This document shows, piece by piece, positions 509 to 11,857 of a DNA stretch of 20,171 bases (positions are counted from its first letter, which is position 1; the number at the start of each line of letters is the position of its first letter). This stretch comes from a virus: positions 1 through 20,171 of IMG/VR virus record IMGVR_UViG_3300030047_000392; one strand, written 5' to 3'. The position numbers were made by a program, and so were the translations under genes. The notes beneath the pieces are model-generated. The model was not told the DNA's origin. It did no database searches and saw only the letters and a list, made by a program, of their open reading frames with translations.

Positions 509-886
509 TTATTTAGTTTCTTCTTCTTGATTAACTTCTTCTTCTTGATCATCTAATAAATCTATTAAAGCGTCATAATCTTCTCTAAGTTGTTGCTCAT
601 AATAAAAATATAAGTCACTTGACATCATTTTATAAATATCTGTCATGCCGTCATAACTTCCTAACGCTTCTACTGTCATTTCTCTTGCTTCGCTGTTCTC
701 TTGCCACTCTTTAACAATATCATAATAATAGATAGGCACTAAGCCGTCTACATACTCAGCAATATTGTCTTCTTGGTCTTTGGTGTCGCTTTCGTCTTTA
801 TCAGTGTAATTGTCCAAGAAGTTAATTAGTGTGTCTTCGTTGTTAAATTTTTCTTTATTAGCGTTTATTAGTTCTTTGTAGTTCAT
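509..886 (-). CDS. Acidic hypothetical protein, 125 aa
   Basis: The protein is strongly acidic: residues about 30-45 are Asp/Glu-rich and the C-terminus is DDQEEEVNQEEETK. The middle has an aromatic cluster (VPIYYYDIVKEW, about 50-61; DLYFYYEQQL, about 91-100). The charge and aromatic pattern resemble small acidic phage early proteins, including DNA mimics, but no family is recognised and this is only a resemblance. It lies 24 bases downstream of the membrane-protein gene and 7 bases upstream of the 66-aa gene, within the leftward operon. Confidence 0.65.
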   Translation of the reverse strand: MNYKELINANKEKFNNEDTLINFLDNYTDKDESDTKDQEDNIAEYVDGLVPIYYYDIVKEWQENSEAREMTVEALGSYDGMTDIYKMMSSDLYFYYEQQLREDYDALIDLLDDQEEEVNQEEETK

Positions 887-910: not shown

Positions 911-1048
911 TTAAATTAAAGATGCTGACCAGATAGATAAGCCTACAATAATTACAAAGGTCATGATGTAAGCAAAGGCTGGGGCGATTGGTTTAGATTG
1001 TCTTGCTTGTTGTTGGCGTTCCTTGAAAGTCATTAGTGATGATGTCAT
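911..1048 (-). CDS. Small single-pass membrane protein, 45 aa
   Basis: A 45-codon ORF starting MTSSLMTFKERQQQARQSKP is followed by one hydrophobic stretch, residues about 21-45 (IAPAFAYIMTFVIIVGLSIW then SASLI), to the C-terminus. The basic N-terminal half followed by a terminal hydrophobic helix suggests a tail-anchored, N-in topology in the host inner membrane. It is the first gene of the leftward cluster, about 85 nt downstream of the predicted transcription start of the 1140-1168 promoter. Function unknown; a holin-like or superinfection role cannot be told from sequence alone. Confidence 0.5.
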   Translation of the reverse strand: MTSSLMTFKERQQQARQSKPIAPAFAYIMTFVIIVGLSIWSASLI

Positions 1049-1139
1049 ATTTTTTGTTGTTCTTTTAGGTTTAATATTATGATCAATTAATTGATAATAA
1101 ATATATGGCTAAAAGTATTGTTTAATTTATTACTATTAT

Positions 1140-1168
1140 ATTATATCAAATATATTTAAGTATGTAAA
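1140..1168 (-). promoter_or_regulatory. Leftward sigma-70 promoter with extended -10
   Basis: Read on the minus strand: -35 TTTACA (1168-1163), 17-base spacer ending in TGA, -10 TATAAT (1145-1140), giving the extended -10 form TGATATAAT. The predicted start is near 1133. It faces the four leftward genes. A perfect DnaA box (1177-1185) lies 8 bases upstream of the -35. Confidence 0.75.
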
Positions 1169-1176
1169 TAGTAAAC

Positions 1177-1185
1177 TGTGGATAA
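1177..1185 (-). promoter_or_regulatory. DnaA box TTATCCACA (copy 1)
   Basis: On the minus strand this is an exact match to the classical high-affinity DnaA box TTATCCACA. It marks the left end of the repeat-rich region and sits just upstream of the leftward promoter. Confidence 0.6.
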
Positions 1186-1283
1186 CTTTTTTCTGCTTAT
1201 GTGCTGCTTATGTGCTGCTAACACCCTATTACCATTGGTTTATATTAAGCAAATAAGCATAATAAGCATTTTCTTTAATTTAA

Positions 1284-1300
1284 ATTGTATAATATACAAT
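1284..1300. repeat. 17-bp palindrome ATTGTAT-AAT-ATACAAT
   Basis: Perfect 7-bp arms around a 3-base centre, near the middle of the origin-like region and between the two arms of the inner 16-bp inverted repeat. The size and symmetry suit a dimeric repressor or initiator site. It also contains a TATAAT, but no good -35 lies at the right distance. Confidence 0.45.
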
Positions 1301-1453
1301 ACAAAACAGTAAATAAGTCAATAGTAAACTATATAAAACTCTTTAAAATGCTTATTTGCTTAATTTTTCGCTCCTGCTTATTGCGGGGCAATAAAGACGG
1401 GGGTAAAAACTCATTAAGCAGCACATAAGCAGGATTTAAGCAGGATGTCAAGA

Positions 1454-1462
1454 TGTGGATAA
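1454..1462 (-). promoter_or_regulatory. DnaA box TTATCCACA (copy 2)
   Basis: Exact DnaA box on the minus strand, closing the right side of the repeat array. Its flank (TGTGGATAACTATT) is shared with the third box near 2426. A TTGACA follows 2 bases further along the minus strand (1451-1446), but the -10 at the expected spacing (TTATGT) is poor, so I do not call a promoter here. Confidence 0.6.
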
Positions 1463-1638
1463 CTATTAAAAAGCTACCTTGTACGCGGCTTTGATCGTCT
1501 ATTTTATCAAAATATGTCAAATAGTTAATATTATGTAATTAGTGAATGTAATAATAGTTATACCTACTTATAGAAAAGTTAAAATCTGTTTTAATATTAG
1601 ATAAAATACTTGATTATAAACTTAGTGTAAGTAAATAC
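1463..1638. other. AT-rich spacer without a gene
   Basis: No gene is supported. It contains TGTCAAATAGTTA (1515-1527), repeated exactly at 2416-2428 next to the third DnaA box. A short palindrome AAGTAAATACTT (1629-1640) overlaps the -35 of the next promoter and could be an operator. Confidence 0.35.
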
Positions 1639-1667
1639 TTGACATAGTTTATTGACAATGATATAAT
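1639..1667 (+). promoter_or_regulatory. Consensus promoter for the HNH endonuclease gene
   Basis: TTGACA (1639-1644), 17-base spacer, TATAAT (1662-1667) with an extended TG at -15/-14 (TGATATAAT). Every hexamer base matches the sigma-70 consensus. The predicted start near 1674 leaves a leader of only about 20 nt before ATG 1696. Confidence 0.8.
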
Positions 1668-1695
1668 AAGATAGTAATAAACTAATTTTAACATT

Positions 1696-2205
1696 ATGAT
1701 GTCAGAATTTAACAAATTTCCGTCAAGAATAGTTGACGGTTATCGTGGAATGTATCGTATTAATAGTATTGGTCAAGTTTTTAGCTTAAAACGTGCCAAA
1801 ATACTATCAACGCATAAGAACACAAATGGCTACACTTATACAAGTCTTGCTAAAAACGGTATCAATAAGCCTTTTAGTGTTCATAGGCTTGTGGCGGCGG
1901 CTTTTTTGGTTAATGATAACCCTTTAAAGATATGGGTTAATCATATAGACGGAGATAAAACAAATAATAAACTTAGCAATTTAGAATGGATCACTCCTAG
2001 TGATAATAAACATCATGCTATTAATACTGGGTTACAACTATACAAACGCGGTGAAGACAATAAAAATGCTATATTAAGCAATAAACAGATAGAATGGATT
2101 AAAACACTAAATAAAAGCGGTTATAATAAGTCACAGCTTTGTGAAGTGTTTAATGTATCAAGAACTTTAATACATTATATAGTCAGCAAGGGTTATAGAG
2201 AATAA
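1696..2205 (+). CDS. Free-standing HNH homing endonuclease (NUMOD4-HNH)
   Basis: Predicted site-specific DNA endonuclease of the NUMOD4-HNH type found in phages. The N-terminus carries a NUMOD4-like segment (about 12-31, VDGYRGMYRINSIGQVFSL). The HNH core follows: His63 in SVHRLVAAAF, Asn82-His83 with Asp85 in VNHIDGDKTNNKLSNLEW (81-98), then SDNKHHA. The C-terminus (about 126-165, ILSNKQIEWIKTLNKSGYNK onward) looks like a helix-turn-helix DNA-binding domain. Two adjacent ATGs (1696, 1699) are possible starts. No Shine-Dalgarno is present. The gene has its own strong promoter and lies between the origin-like region and the main rightward promoter, so it is not inside a recognisable intron. 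It is probably a selfish element that spreads into related phages lacking it. Confidence 0.85.
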   Translation: MMSEFNKFPSRIVDGYRGMYRINSIGQVFSLKRAKILSTHKNTNGYTYTSLAKNGINKPFSVHRLVAAAFLVNDNPLKIWVNHIDGDKTNNKLSNLEWITPSDNKHHAINTGLQLYKRGEDNKNAILSNKQIEWIKTLNKSGYNKSQLCEVFNVSRTLIHYIVSKGYRE

Positions 2206-2425: not shown

Positions 2426-2434
2426 TTATCCACA
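2426..2434 (+). promoter_or_regulatory. DnaA box TTATCCACA (copy 3)
   Basis: Exact DnaA box on the plus strand, 4 bases upstream of the -35 of the main rightward promoter. It shares a 14-base context (AATAGTTATCCACA) with copy 2 on the opposite strand. A protein bound here would touch RNA polymerase, so it could activate or repress the late operon. Confidence 0.6.
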
Positions 2435-2438
2435 CCTA

Positions 2439-2467
2439 TTGACAAACACTTTTTTATATGATATAAT
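2439..2467 (+). promoter_or_regulatory. Main rightward promoter of the packaging/structural operon
   Basis: TTGACA (2439-2444), 17-base spacer, TATAAT (2462-2467), extended -10 TGATATAAT. Full consensus. The predicted start is near 2474. No other equally good promoter faces the head genes downstream, so this one probably drives the whole rightward cluster. Confidence 0.8.
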
Positions 2468-2488
2468 ATAATCAGTTAAGTCAAGTTT

Positions 2489-2615
2489 TTCTGTCTGCCC
2501 GTATTAACTCTATTTATGTCTTATTCGGTGATCCCGAGAACACAAAAGAGGATGTCCAGCTTCACGGGAGATTTCACAATCCAAAGTGCACAAAAATTAT
2601 ATGGGCTGGACAGAA
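2489..2615 (+). ncRNA. Structured 5' leader, candidate cis-regulatory RNA
   Basis: The leader of the rightward transcript is less AT-rich than its flanks and can fold in two exclusive ways. Fold A: TTCTGTC and GCCC (2489-2495, 2497-2500) pair with GGGC and GACAGAA (2603-2606, 2609-2615). Fold B: TGTCCAGC (2553-2560) pairs with GCTGGACA (2605-2612). A small TCGG/CCGA hairpin lies inside. Competing stems are typical of attenuators and riboswitches, but I recognise no known class. The alternative is coding: an ATG ORF of 35 codons (2516-2623) and a second open frame lacking a normal start codon cover the same bases. Confidence 0.35.
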
Positions 2616-2623
2616 GAATTTAA
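2516..2623 (+). CDS. Possible 35-aa ORF in the leader
   Basis: The ORF starts ATG TCT TAT and reads MSYSVIPRTQKRMSSFTGDF, ending LYGLDRRI. Its composition (Arg, Ser, GC-rich codons) differs from neighbouring genes. Another frame of the same stretch is open to 2634 with protein-like composition, but has only CTG or ATT as possible starts. It could be a leader peptide, a gene remnant, or chance within a structured RNA. Confidence 0.2.
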   Translation: MSYSVIPRTQKRMSSFTGDFTIQSAQKLYGLDRRI

Positions 2624-2649
2624 CTAAGATTTAACATAAACCCCACGCA

Positions 2650-3211: not shown

Positions 3212-3787
3212 ATGGATACTAAGGAAGAAGTTGAAGGTGAAATAATGACTGTCGAGCAAATGAGAGAAAGAGACATTCTCCATATTGCCGGCGTTGAAGC
3301 CAGACAAAAGATGGCTTTTTGGCGTTTGTATCTCGATCCAACTAGTCCGACACTTATGAACGCGAAACAGTCGGCTATTTCTGCAGGGTTTCCTGAAGAG
3401 CAGGCAAATGCGGTCACACAGTATAAATGGTTCAAACGCGGAACAATGAAGGATAGATTATTAGAAGTGGCGGAGAAGACATTAGAGGATATGCTAACAT
3501 TGCCAAGAACTACAATTAAAATAGTTAAAGGTGAAGAAGTTTTAGTAGATGATCCAGCTATGGTGAAGATTATTCAAGATACTGCTAAATATATTGCCTC
3601 TACTCTTGGTAAAAAGGATTATTCCCAACGCAACGAACTTACTGGTAAAAAGGGTGGCGCGATTGAAACTGTGGCCGTTAAGATTGATGATAAGGAATTT
3701 GATAATATATTAGAACGATATGCTGCAAAACGCTCAGCTAAACGAACAACAGAAGAAGGATGTATTGAAGAAAGCATTTCAAAATGA
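3212..3787 (+). CDS. terS: Terminase small subunit
   Basis: Predicted DNA-recognition subunit of the packaging motor. The 191-aa length and position directly before the large subunit fit. Residues about 30-65 (ARQKMAFWRLYLDPTSPTLM, then NAKQSAISAGFPEEQAN) have the look of the small-subunit helix-turn-helix, with the NAxxSAxxAGF pattern common in terminase small subunits. The middle carries the oligomerisation helices (LLEVAEKTLEDML; MVKIIQDTAKYIASTLG) and the basic C-terminus probably contacts the large subunit. Starts at ATG 3212; M12 (3245) is an alternative. The last 68 bases overlap the large-subunit gene in another frame. Confidence 0.8.
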   Translation: MDTKEEVEGEIMTVEQMRERDILHIAGVEARQKMAFWRLYLDPTSPTLMNAKQSAISAGFPEEQANAVTQYKWFKRGTMKDRLLEVAEKTLEDMLTLPRTTIKIVKGEEVLVDDPAMVKIIQDTAKYIASTLGKKDYSQRNELTGKKGGAIETVAVKIDDKEFDNILERYAAKRSAKRTTEEGCIEESISK

Positions 3788-5168
3788 TATTGAGGAGTTT
3801 GGTAGATATTTCTTTCCGCATTACATGAGTAATGCCACTCCCAAATTTCACCGTGCAATCTTCGATTTATATGAGAATCCTAAATTAGATAAAATAGTAA
3901 TCGGTGCTCCTCGTGGGCACGCCAAATCAACAATAACCGATTTAATATATTTAGCATGGGTATTGTGTAATAATAAAGCAAAATTTGTTCTTTTAATCTC
4001 CGATACTTACTCCCAGGCAACTTTGTTTCTTAACGCTATTAAAGGTGAGTTTGAAACAAATGAAAAATTAATTAATTTCTACGGTAAATTAACCTCTGAT
4101 AAATGGTCAGAAGGGGAAATTATTACTAATGGAATCTTAGTTAAAGCTTTAGGTGGCGGTATGAAGGTTCGTGGTTTGAAATTTCGTGAATCGCGCCCGG
4201 ACCTAATTATCTGCGATGATCTTGAAAATGAAGAGGCTGTGGATAATAAGGAAAGACGTGAGAAGTTTGAGAGATGGTTTACCGCTGCGTTGCTTCCTGC
4301 AATGGCTAAGGGGGGCCGTGCTATCGTTATTGGAACTATTCTACACTTTGATTCATTACTAGCTAAATTACTGACTCCTGATAAGTATATCGGATGGAAC
4401 AAGAGCACCTATCGGGCTATTAATGATTGGGGAGCACTATGGCCAGAACATTTGTCGATGGACGAACTTTTAAAGATTAAAGCGGAGTATATTTCTCAAG
4501 GTCATGCGTTTCTTTTTTATCAGGAATATCAAAACGAACCAATTAGTGATGAATTTCAGAAGTTTAAATTAGAAAAAATTCGTTTCTATGACGAAAAAGA
4601 TTTATTACAGAAGGATTTACGAACATATGTGGCAATTGATAGAGCATATTCTCTTGAAAAAACTGCCGATTTTACTGCGATTGTTGTCGTATCTGTCGAT
4701 AAAGAGAATAAGTGGTATGTCAGATTGGCGCAGAGGTTTAAGGGGGATGAGAAGGCCTTAATTGAAAAAATATTTGATTTAAAGATATTTTTCTCACCGG
4801 ATATGTTCGGTATCGAGCAAAAAGCGTATAAATATACGATTAAGCCGGCACTTGACGATGAGATGAGAAAGCGTAGTATATTTTTTAAGTGTGAGGAGTT
4901 AAAAGATTTAGGAGTTGGTAAAAATAAGAGAATTGAGGGTTTAATTCCACGCTTTGAGTCTAGTTCTATCTTCTTATTAAGAGATCAGACGGATTTAGTC
5001 GATGAGTTAATTAAGTTTCCTAAAGGTGGCCACGATGATTTGATTGATTCTTTGGCTTACCACTTAGATTTATCGGCTGGTTCTGCTTATAAGGGGCGCG
5101 CAACTACACAATTTATTCCTAAAGGAATAGTAAGACGAACTTTTTTCACAATAAATAATGATTTATGA
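3720..5168 (+). CDS. terL: Terminase large subunit (ATPase and nuclease)
   Basis: Motor subunit that pumps and cuts DNA during head filling. 482 aa, a normal size. ATPase domain: Walker A GAPRGHAKST (62-71); Walker B DLIICDD followed by acidic residues (161-171); a coupling-like segment AIVIGTILH (201-209). RNase H-like nuclease: VAIDRAYS (304-311) with Asp307 and a nearby TADFTA, Glu366 in FGIEQKAY, and the C-terminal acidic pair in GGHDDLIDSLAYHLD (436-450). All expected catalytic positions are present. The ATG at 3720 lies inside the small-subunit gene (68-base overlap), and the 3' end overlaps the portal start in an ATGA, so the three genes are probably translationally coupled. Confidence 0.95.
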   Translation: MLQNAQLNEQQKKDVLKKAFQNDIEEFGRYFFPHYMSNATPKFHRAIFDLYENPKLDKIVIGAPRGHAKSTITDLIYLAWVLCNNKAKFVLLISDTYSQATLFLNAIKGEFETNEKLINFYGKLTSDKWSEGEIITNGILVKALGGGMKVRGLKFRESRPDLIICDDLENEEAVDNKERREKFERWFTAALLPAMAKGGRAIVIGTILHFDSLLAKLLTPDKYIGWNKSTYRAINDWGALWPEHLSMDELLKIKAEYISQGHAFLFYQEYQNEPISDEFQKFKLEKIRFYDEKDLLQKDLRTYVAIDRAYSLEKTADFTAIVVVSVDKENKWYVRLAQRFKGDEKALIEKIFDLKIFFSPDMFGIEQKAYKYTIKPALDDEMRKRSIFFKCEELKDLGVGKNKRIEGLIPRFESSSIFLLRDQTDLVDELIKFPKGGHDDLIDSLAYHLDLSAGSAYKGRATTQFIPKGIVRRTFFTINNDL

Positions 5169-9715: not shown

Positions 9716-11857
9716 ATGATAATGGATTCAACCAACTTCGCGTTGGTAAAAACGGAGCTAAAATAATCTGGTTCCGTGTGGATTAAGGGTAAATCTGCAA
9801 AAAATTGGGTGAATTGCTGGAAACTCCTAATAACGGACAATCAGCAGCCAAGTTATCTAGGGATAGATAAAAGGTTCAACGACTAACAGCATACCACTAG
9901 AACAGTGATGAAGCTGACACGAGCGCCCGACATTCATTAATAATGGGTGAAGATATAGTCTGGACACTAGATATATATAAAACTAGTGAAATATAGGATA
10001 AAGAGCCTATATGTTAACATAATCAAGATAGAGTATTTTATCAAAAATTTGCTTGGGAAACAGCTTTTCCATCATTAGCAACTGCTGAAACTGCTGCATT
10101 ATTTAAACCAATGCAAATCGATAGAGCTGCTTATGTTGAAGAAGTATTCCAAGGTTCTCCTTTATATGCAAATATTTCTGAGACACAAACTGTTCCTGCA
10201 ACTACTCCAATTGCTGGTAACAAACTGACAACTTTCGTACAAGACTACGCTCAAGCGAAAGATATCAGTAAGAATTTTTTCGATAGACTAGCAGGCATGC
10301 TAAGTTTTCAAAGATTATCGTTTAGTCTTTAAAAATTATTGTCGAAGTAAAACAGGGATAAACGGGGAAACTCCTATAAATATTAGGACAATCCCGTACC
10401 AAGCATTAATTTAAATGATTAATGAAGGTCGAACGACTAGAAGGTGAACCTCTTCGTTGAGAACATAATCCTTCCACGAAACCCCTGCCCCGAAAGGGTG
10501 AAGATATAGTCTGGGCAATCTTGAAAAATAAACTTGACAAATACCTAATAGATGATATAATTAATACATATTAATTTAAAAAAAATATGGAAAAAATTTA
10601 TAAAATATCTATTAAAAGAAGGGAGTATTCAGCAAAATGGCGTTTAAAAAAAATAGAAGATGTTAGACGTCAAGCACGTGAATGGGTAGAAAGAAAAAAA
10701 CAAAGTGAAAATGGTGAAGAATTTATGGAACTTTGTAATTCACGAGCTAAAAGATATAGAGAAAAAAATCTAGAAAAATGTAGAGAAAGAGAGAAGGAAA
10801 AATCTAGACTATATCGCAAAAATAATCCCGAAAAATATTTACAACAGGCCAGAGATTATCGTAAAAATAATCCCGAAAGGTTTAAATCTTATTATGAAAA
10901 TAGGAAAAAAACATCTGGGTTTACTAGAGATAAGAGAAACGGTACTCTAAGAAAATATGGGCTAGATGTTGAAAAATATAATATAATGGTAGATGGTCAA
11001 GGAGGTAAGTGTGCTATCTGTGATAATAGTAATGATAGTCTAGTAGTAGATCATTGTCACGAAACTGGAAAAGTAAGAAGTTTGTTATGTAATAAATGCA
11101 ATATCTTACTTGGAATGATTGAGTCTGGATTTAAAAGAAATGAAAATATACTCAATTTATCATTAGAATACCTCAAAAAAAATGAAGCACTAAGAGATTG
11201 ATTGTCGGAATAAAGAGTTCGGCAGATAACAAAATGGATAATATGCACGGGTTCTATTCTAAGGTTGTTGAAGACATGGCTATGAAAGCTCGTGTTACAA
11301 TGACAAACAATGCTTTCGCTGTATATCGTGGTGCTTTCACAACTACTTTAACTGCTGATGGAGCTCCATTAATCGGAACTCACACTTTACTTATTGGTTC
11401 TTCTTATTCCAATGTAGTAACTGGTGCTTTAAGTGTTTCTACCCTTAATGATGCTTTAGTTAAATTAGCTGAACAACCTGACCAAGCTGGTGTAGTAATG
11501 GGTAACCAAGGTCGTTACTTATTAGTTCCACAAGCTTTATTCACACACGCAACTCAAATCACTGAATCTGCATTAGTAGCTGATTCTGCTAATAACAACT
11601 TGAACGTATATCGTTCTGCATTTGGTATCACTATCTACACTTCTCCTTACTTAGGATTTAATGCAGGTGGTTCAGATACTGCATGGTTCTTACTATCAGA
11701 AAATCACACAGTTACTCGTATTATCAGACAAGGTATTCAAACTTATCTACGTGATTGGGGTATGTCTAACAACAGAACTTATAACTACCAAGCTAACTTC
11801 AGAGAAGTCGTTTATGCTGTAGATTATGTCGGAACTGTTGGATCTACCGGCCTATAA
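9716..11857 (+). CDS. Major capsid protein, three exons split by two group I introns
   Basis: HK97-fold-type major capsid protein is inferred from position after the scaffold and from sequence pattern. Exons are 9716-9759, 10032-10284 and 11237-11857; joined they give 918 bases, 305 aa plus stop, with no internal stop. Exon 1 reads MIMDSTNFALVKTEL; the junction to exon 2 gives TELVFYQKFAWE. Exon 2 ends DISKNFFD and exon 3 opens DNMHGFYSKVVEDMAMKARV, giving a continuous helix-like FFDDNMHGFY. Later text (AFTTTLTADGAPLIGTHTLL; QGRYLLVPQALF; TAWFLL; FREVVYAVDYVGTVG at the C-terminus) is typical of phage major capsid proteins. Without splicing, exon 1 stops at TAA 9764-9766 and exon 2 at 10330-10332. 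The ATG at 9722 is an alternative start. Leader hairpin at 9671-9707. Confidence 0.85.
9760..10031 (+). ncRNA. Group I intron 1 in the MCP gene (ORF-less)
   Basis: 272-nt self-splicing ribozyme. P1: exon ACGGAGCT (9752-9759) with guide GGTTCCGT (9770-9777), all eight pairs formed, with U.G at the splice site. P3: TTGGGTG (9805-9811) with CGCCCGA (9924-9930). P4: TGCTG (9815-9819) with CAGCA (9842-9846). P5: TCC/GGA (9825-9827, 9835-9837). P7: GACTA (9881-9885) with TAGTC (9956-9960), in the classical contexts GGTTCAACGACTA and AAGATATAGTC. P9: CACTAG/CTAGTG (9965-9970, 9983-9988). P9.1: TATAGG/CCTATA (9992-9997, 10006-10011). It ends in G (10031). P10 pairing is weak (two pairs), so the 3' site is supported mainly by the terminal G and restored frame. 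Confidence 0.88.
10534..10561 (+). promoter_or_regulatory. Promoter inside intron 2 for the endonuclease gene
   Basis: TTGACA (10534-10539), 16-base spacer, TATAAT (10556-10561), extended TGATATAAT. The predicted start near 10568 gives a leader of about 20 nt to ATG 10587. It has the same architecture as the promoter of the free-standing HNH gene and would allow expression independent of the capsid transcript. Confidence 0.75.
10587..11201 (+). CDS. Intron-encoded endonuclease VII-like homing endonuclease
   Basis: 204 aa. The C-terminal domain (about 121-180) matches the recombination endonuclease VII / His-Me finger fold: LRKYGLDVEKYNIM (121-134), a zinc knuckle CAIC (142-145) and CNKC (168-171), and the metal/catalytic DHCHETGKVRSLLC (155-168). 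The N-terminal 110 residues are very basic and helical with repeated YRKNNPE-type units (about 76-82 and 91-97), probably DNA-binding. Such enzymes cut intronless alleles of the host gene to spread the intron. It is inserted in the P9 loop; its stop codon (11199-11201) overlaps the 3' strand of P9 (11195-11200), so the coding end and ribozyme structure share bases. Its A-rich codon use differs from the capsid exons. It has its own promoter and no Shine-Dalgarno. Confidence 0.88.
   Translation: MEKIYKISIKRREYSAKWRLKKIEDVRRQAREWVERKKQSENGEEFMELCNSRAKRYREKNLEKCREREKEKSRLYRKNNPEKYLQQARDYRKNNPERFKSYYENRKKTSGFTRDKRNGTLRKYGLDVEKYNIMVDGQGGKCAICDNSNDSLVVDHCHETGKVRSLLCNKCNILLGMIESGFKRNENILNLSLEYLKKNEALRD

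Follow-up and report, generated by a model that had tools for sequence, protein, structure and literature searches.

A likely P4/PICI-type replication origin with a four-set iteron array in an uncultivated phage

We consider it likely, on the strength of sequence comparison, that positions 1177 to 1462 of the DNA analyzed here are the replication origin of this phage and that the origin is of the P4/PICI type. The window, by which we mean the whole stretch analyzed, comprises 20,171 bases and is an entire linear virus fragment from IMG/VR. A sequence-only reading had proposed an origin at this locus, and the proposal is supported by three more contigs in which the same topology, spelled with other words, occupies the same gap beside an operon encoding a P4-family helicase. 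The anatomy of the sequence, its recurrence at the corresponding locus of other contigs, and the family of the helicase are established. The kind of origin is familiar but its arrangement varies, combining a P4-like place and helicase with a PICI-like two-sided layout, flanking DnaA boxes, and a geometry that persists when the word changes. It is rare for the origin of an uncultivated phage to be recognized from sequence.

Genomic context

The array sits between divergent sigma-70-like promoters, with the early operon transcribed away from it and the late packaging genes running the opposite way. The leftward gene set in the window is short (132-886) and includes an Ocr-like anti-restriction family gene of the early operon (509-886, minus strand; phrog_2568), with the leftward early promoter TTTACA-17-TATAAT at 1140-1168 (minus strand). 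The rightward set is long, comprising the large terminase (3720-5168, plus strand; phrog_38), a portal-like protein assigned from its position and size, and more structural genes. A putative small terminase, named by position only (3212-3787, plus strand), opens the late operon (start region 3212-5168), and the rightward late promoter TTGACA-17-TATAAT is found at 2439-2467 (plus strand). Another promoter of the form TTGACA-17-TATAAT (1639-1667, plus strand) precedes a free-standing HNH endonuclease gene (1696-2205, plus strand). Since both this gene and its promoter are missing in the related contig L009, we regard them as an insertion beside the origin rather than a part of it.

No relative of the window was found among 50,697 phage records (INPHARED) by DNA, portal, or Ocr-like protein, and genome scans with the portal and helicase returned no host or prophage. 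Rfam gave nothing significant over the origin region, and GC skew, which is confounded here by divergent transcription, has no clean switch.

Anatomy of the iteron array

All repeats in this noncoding stretch of ~290 bases are copies of a single word, TGCT[T/A]A, present 12 times in four alternating sets of three and ordered >>> <<< / >>> <<< around an AT-rich center, a single-word structure that had been overlooked. The left outer set (1194-1221, plus strand) consists of TGCTTA at 1194 and 1205 and TGCTAA at 1216, with a pitch of 11 bp, and is mirrored at the same 11-bp pitch by the right outer set (1415-1442, minus strand; starts at 1415, 1426, and 1437). The left inner set (1246-1268, minus strand; starts at 1246, 1254, and 1263) has a pitch of 8 to 9 bp, and the right inner set (1349-1380, plus strand) starts at 1349, 1357, and 1375, with one interval of 18. 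Between them lies the center (1269-1348; 80 bp, 15% GC), a proposed melting site, which holds a palindrome (1284-1300) with 8-bp arms ATTGTATA; a hairpin, TTATTGC/GCAATAA, is located at 1378-1394.

The array contains 11 copies of TGCTTA where 0.76 are expected, and no more than 6 were reached in 2000 shuffles. The outer sets contribute an inverted pair of 18 bp (1193-1210/1415-1432; alternatively 16 bp, 1204-1219/1417-1432) and the inner sets one of 17 bp (1244-1260/1348-1364), while 150 shuffles produced no inverted repeat longer than 13. The nested 16-bp inverted pairs, the tandem 11-bp and 9-bp repeats, and the central palindrome and hairpin of the sequence-only reading are all borne out, the pairs proving slightly longer than described.

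Three exact DnaA boxes (TTATCCACA) accompany the array. Box 1 (1177-1185, minus strand) lies 8 bp upstream of the -35 element of the leftward promoter, box 2 (1454-1462, minus strand) forms the right flank of the array, and box 3 (2426-2434, plus strand) is directly upstream of the late promoter.

Sister types with exchanged iteron words

Contigs L007 and L008 match the window at 99.9%, and a sister type is represented by L009 and L017, which are 99.9% alike across their overlap. Along a left arm of ~2.2 kb that includes the first 98 helicase codons, L008 and L017 are 100% identical. Across window positions 980-2200 identity drops to about 40 to 75% per 100 bases, and past this stretch the window and L009 are 91 to 95% identical. 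Only the DnaA boxes and the geometry survive across the L009 gap, with >90% identity outside it. The L009 array is built from the word TGTTAAG in the order >> << / >>> (1045/1056, 1108/1115, and 1211/1219/1227) at offsets similar to those of the window, and lacks the right outer set.

Because identical left arms stand beside two different words, the origin appears to be exchangeable without the neighboring 2.2 kb, and because the first 98 helicase codons are also identical, the word does not depend on that portion of the protein. The degenerate word TGYTWA fits both TGCTTA and TGTTAA and covers the words of both sister types bar one copy. Either one helicase reads TGYTWA, or the C terminus of the window-type helicase differs; the C terminus was read from the sister type (L017), and window-type sequence covers only the first 98 codons (L008). 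This natural swap of two words beside an identical left arm is a ready-made test of how an initiator recognizes its origin. L009 carries a different endonuclease-like insertion near its late promoter (about 1850-2306, judged by eye), and distinct endonuclease-like genes beside the origin in the two sister types could drive local exchange of origin alleles by intronless homing.

A shared layout in distant relatives

Helicase relatives at 52 to 60% identity led to L025 (with L024 being the same sequence type) and L026, records that also carry homologous portals. In both, the terminase genes run leftward and the helicase rightward, as a mirror image of the window. The L025 gap contains an array of TG[C/T][C/T]TGTC-like words in the order >> << / > <<< around a center of 82 bp and 21% GC, and the L026 gap an array of TGT[C/T]TGT in the order >>> << / > <<< around a center of 75 bp and 11% GC. 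L026 shares the L025 core >><<><<<, to which it adds overlapping copies and, at either end, one mirror copy, and the inner pitch in both is 8 to 9 bp. Compared across the window, L009, L025, and L026, by a topology recognized after the fact, the outer pitch is 11 bp in all four arrays save for one interval of 12 in L025, the inner pitch is 7 to 9 bp (with one interval of 18, in the window), and the centers measure 75 to 88 bp at 11 to 22% GC. G001 (L019) stops at the gap and was therefore left out of this comparison, which also leaves aside the terminase relatives L011-L015 (about 30% identity), as these end or differ upstream of the terminase.

In a scan for word clusters, the top dispersed noncoding cluster lay in the early/late divergent gap in each of the four contigs, higher peaks in the window and L025 falling in repeat-rich coding frames. 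The identical scan on phage P4, run as a control, placed its two highest peaks at the annotated crr and ori. A second, crr-like word cluster was not found in the window, L009, L017, L025, or L026, which are incomplete contigs.

That this gap repeatedly carries one topology spelled in different words favors an origin bound by an initiator over a set of operators. Comparing the contigs also gives a layout with predictive value whatever the iteron word, which could guide the search for origins in other phages that encode P4-family helicases. It is conceivable, though we hold it only tentatively, that a geometric code (four alternating sets, an outer pitch of 11 bp, an inner pitch of 7 to 9 bp, and an AT-rich center of 75 to 88 bp) is fixed across the phage lineage while the word switches, the origin being a cassette swapped between close relatives without the adjacent operon, possibly helped by homing endonuclease genes, with one helicase perhaps reading both close words.

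A P4-family helicase in the early operon

The sequence-only reading had stated that no initiator gene is in the window. This is true of the window itself, but a candidate lies just outside: L008 runs 1.3 kb left beyond the window into the N terminus of a helicase (L008:2-295, minus strand), and L017 contains the full-length gene (L017:2461-3909, 482 amino acids), further along the early operon on the strand of the Ocr-like gene. In L008, the 98 N-terminal helicase codons are physically linked to a window-type array. The L017 helicase matches TIGR01613 (phage/plasmid primase, P4 family) at 164 bits with a cutoff of 108.7, and the early-operon helicase exceeds the curated cutoff in four of the four contigs tested. 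The L017 protein also matches D5_N and DUF5906 (D5/SF3) and by hhalign is a homolog of P4 alpha (98.8%). Among solved structures its best relative is 7ola, listed as a DNA primase, which we take to be the SaPI5 primase-helicase.

The last 114 residues are predicted to form a winged helix (AF2, C-terminal domain alone, core pLDDT about 90), and the best fold matches of the model are RFX DNA-binding domains. In addition, three of the four helicases match the Pox_D5 C-terminal family. From the model, this C-terminal winged helix is a predicted origin-binding domain. An AlphaFold model of the full-length helicase from two sequences reached a pLDDT of 35, and a search of the sequences of solved structures with the C-terminal domain by itself returned nothing beyond chance matches.

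A long hairpin, differing in sequence each time, lies shortly upstream of the helicase gene in four of four contigs (L017, 2310-2400; L025, 9366-9440; L019, 3630-3715; L026, 9554-9650). Rfam gave no convincing match for these hairpins, which are reminiscent of the RNA-based control known upstream of P4 alpha.

Comparison with known replication systems

In the satellite phage P4, the annotated ori separates the alpha operon, which runs leftward, from the late genes, which run rightward, and the window array is placed alike. P4 type 1 iterons (GGTGAACA, 8 bp, in mixed orientation) resemble the window array in their pitch of 10 to 11 bp. However, the P4 ori is ordered <<< > <<, without the four-set symmetry, and the DnaA boxes flanking the window array set it apart from the P4 ori. 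P4 has a second cis element, crr, which carries the ori iterons too and which we did not find in the incomplete contigs here, and its alpha protein has 777 amino acids including a primase part, whereas the helicase described here (482 amino acids) matches the helicase part only.

The iteron plasmids P1 oriR, pSC101, and RK2 combine iterons, DnaA boxes, and an AT-rich region, as does the window. Their iterons are about 17 to 22 bp, tandem, and in one orientation, and their Rep proteins are not helicases; no Rep gene of the iteron-plasmid type was seen in the sequence at hand. The Alteromonas phage vB_AmaS-R9Y1 (OM287554) shares the gene order, with TerS leftward and a primase-helicase rightward, and its TerS/helicase gap contains a cluster of TGTAACG around a stretch of 26% GC in a partly similar topology (>>><><>><), with neither a DnaA-type box nor an annotated origin. 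In contrast, the D5-helicase phage KP13-27 of Klebsiella has no comparable array near its helicase, and thus the layout is not universal.

PICI origins consist of two iteron sets flanking an AT-rich region (PMC6092414). The window array shares this layout with the PICI/SaPI origins, and 7ola connects the phage helicase to the same group as its closest solved relative. The differences concern position and gene content: PICI origins lie just 3' of rep, while the array here stands at the start of the helicase operon, 1.2 to 3.2 kb upstream of the gene, and the phage has its own terminase, portal, and head genes, whereas PICIs are without structural genes. A 2018 survey recognized the two-set iteron layout in no known replicon except PICIs (PMC6092414), a distribution that would be broadened by a phage lineage that has the layout and also encodes terminase and head proteins of its own. 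In SCCmec, the C-terminal domain of the D5_N/primase_Cterm helicase Cch2 binds short iterons (PMC7581432), although the putative Cch2 origin differs from the window in having three AAGTG iterons only, downstream of the gene in a chromosomal cassette.

Operators as an alternative to an origin

The best surviving alternative, which we nevertheless regard as unlikely, is that a phage repressor or activator of the two divergent operons binds the repeats as operators (an immunity region or an early/late switch), with the DnaA boxes being host-responsive promoter elements and replication starting elsewhere. The array does lie between divergent sigma-70-like promoters, with boxes 1 and 3 directly upstream of -35 elements, but the 12 iterons miss the strong promoters, the nearest set beginning 25 bp upstream of the leftward -35 and the other sets being more distant. 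A swapped sequence beside identical neighbors in close relatives would also fit an immunity region, and a small HTH-like protein (HTH judged by eye) is encoded downstream of the helicase (L019:5993-6217, L025:12003-12248). Operators do not, however, need a near-constant AT-rich center and alternating sets of two pitches, as observed in four contigs, and the equivalent position in P4 is annotated as ori.

DnaA boxes and a possible role of the host initiator

Five exact DnaA boxes occur in the 20-kb window against 0.26 expected, and none of 500 shuffles had five boxes, or three inside 1.3 kb, which bears out the sequence-only reading that exact boxes are rare by chance. Its description of the array as bracketed by perfect boxes is correct for the exact copies at 1177 and 1454; since both are on the minus strand, however, they are a direct pair, not a mirrored one. 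The two other exact boxes in the window, at 4238 and 16077, are both within genes. L009 keeps box 1 (1027-1035), where the surrounding DNA is ~50 to 67% identical to the window, as well as box 2 (1315-1323), at a distance of 288 bp from box 1, and a counterpart of box 3 at 1784. The gaps of L025 and L026 contain no exact box. TTATACACA, fitting the broader TTWTNCACA, is present in the L026 gap and at the G001 end, whereas the L025 gap is without any matching box. Outside its gap, L025 has three exact boxes (11409, 11656, and 14114), and P4 (L032) has one, at 4281, immediately beside crr.

Being exact only in close relatives and loose elsewhere, the boxes are probably accessory, and DnaA is probably an accessory host input that is unlikely to be the sole initiator. 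That the locus is a DnaA-driven oriC-like or plasmid-type origin, with host DnaA as main initiator and the iterons as secondary sites, seems very improbable. Its appeal lies in the presence of three exact boxes inside 1.3 kb, which L009 retains despite scrambled DNA between them, and in the TTATACACA copies of L026 and G001. Instead of several boxes clustered beside an AT-rich element, as at oriC, just two flank the array, 277 bp apart and in the same orientation. In addition, the L025 gap has none, the encoded helicase is of a self-loading type, and P4, which replicates without DnaA, counts against a DnaA-driven origin.

We give almost no credence to the idea that the inverted repeats act by folding, as a cruciform or single-strand hairpin, at a packaging, recombination, or single-strand initiation site: the array lies about 2 kb from the terminase genes and the fold energy z is -6.1 in the window and -8.2 in L026, but it is only -2.1 in L009 and -1.9 in L025, where the iteron topology is kept without long pairing, so that the conserved property is word spacing, not pairing. 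Cruciform extrusion, which the nested symmetry had suggested on first reading, was rejected as a conserved feature, as z is about -2 in two of the four arrays.

Proposed mechanism of initiation

For an origin of the P4/PICI type, we propose that the phage P4-family SF3 helicase would bind the TGCT[T/A]A iterons via its C-terminal winged helix. With the protein bound to the two mirrored half-arrays, a hexamer would be placed to either side of the 80-bp AT-rich center, which would then melt so that two forks may start. An 11-bp pitch would put the outer words on about one face of the helix, and the oppositely pointing sets within each half-array suggest pairs of domains touching an outer and an inner set. 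Host DnaA at the flanking boxes may aid opening or couple initiation to the adjacent divergent promoters; as boxes 1 and 3 abut -35 elements, DnaA probably assists the origin or ties it to these promoters. This two-hexamer loading model, which we find the most economical, is concrete and testable, and it draws support from the published two-sided layout of PICI origins (PMC6092414) and from iteron binding by the Cch2 C-terminal domain (PMC7581432).

Additional features of the genome

About 150 bases past the late promoter are near-identical between the window (2470-2640) and L009 (2350-2520), with more divergent flanks, and a possible short reading frame in this stretch is broken by an indel between the two. 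The stretch resembles a conserved leader RNA in which TGTCCAGC and GCTGGACA would pair, and Rfam gave no match for it. Finally, two group I introns (Rfam RF00028) are present in the head-protein region of the window, at 9750-9982 (84.9 bits) and 10306-10533 (51.7 bits). Downstream of the second lies an open reading frame of the endonuclease VII type (10587-11201), and a capsid-like frame is split into 10111-10332 and 11198-11857.
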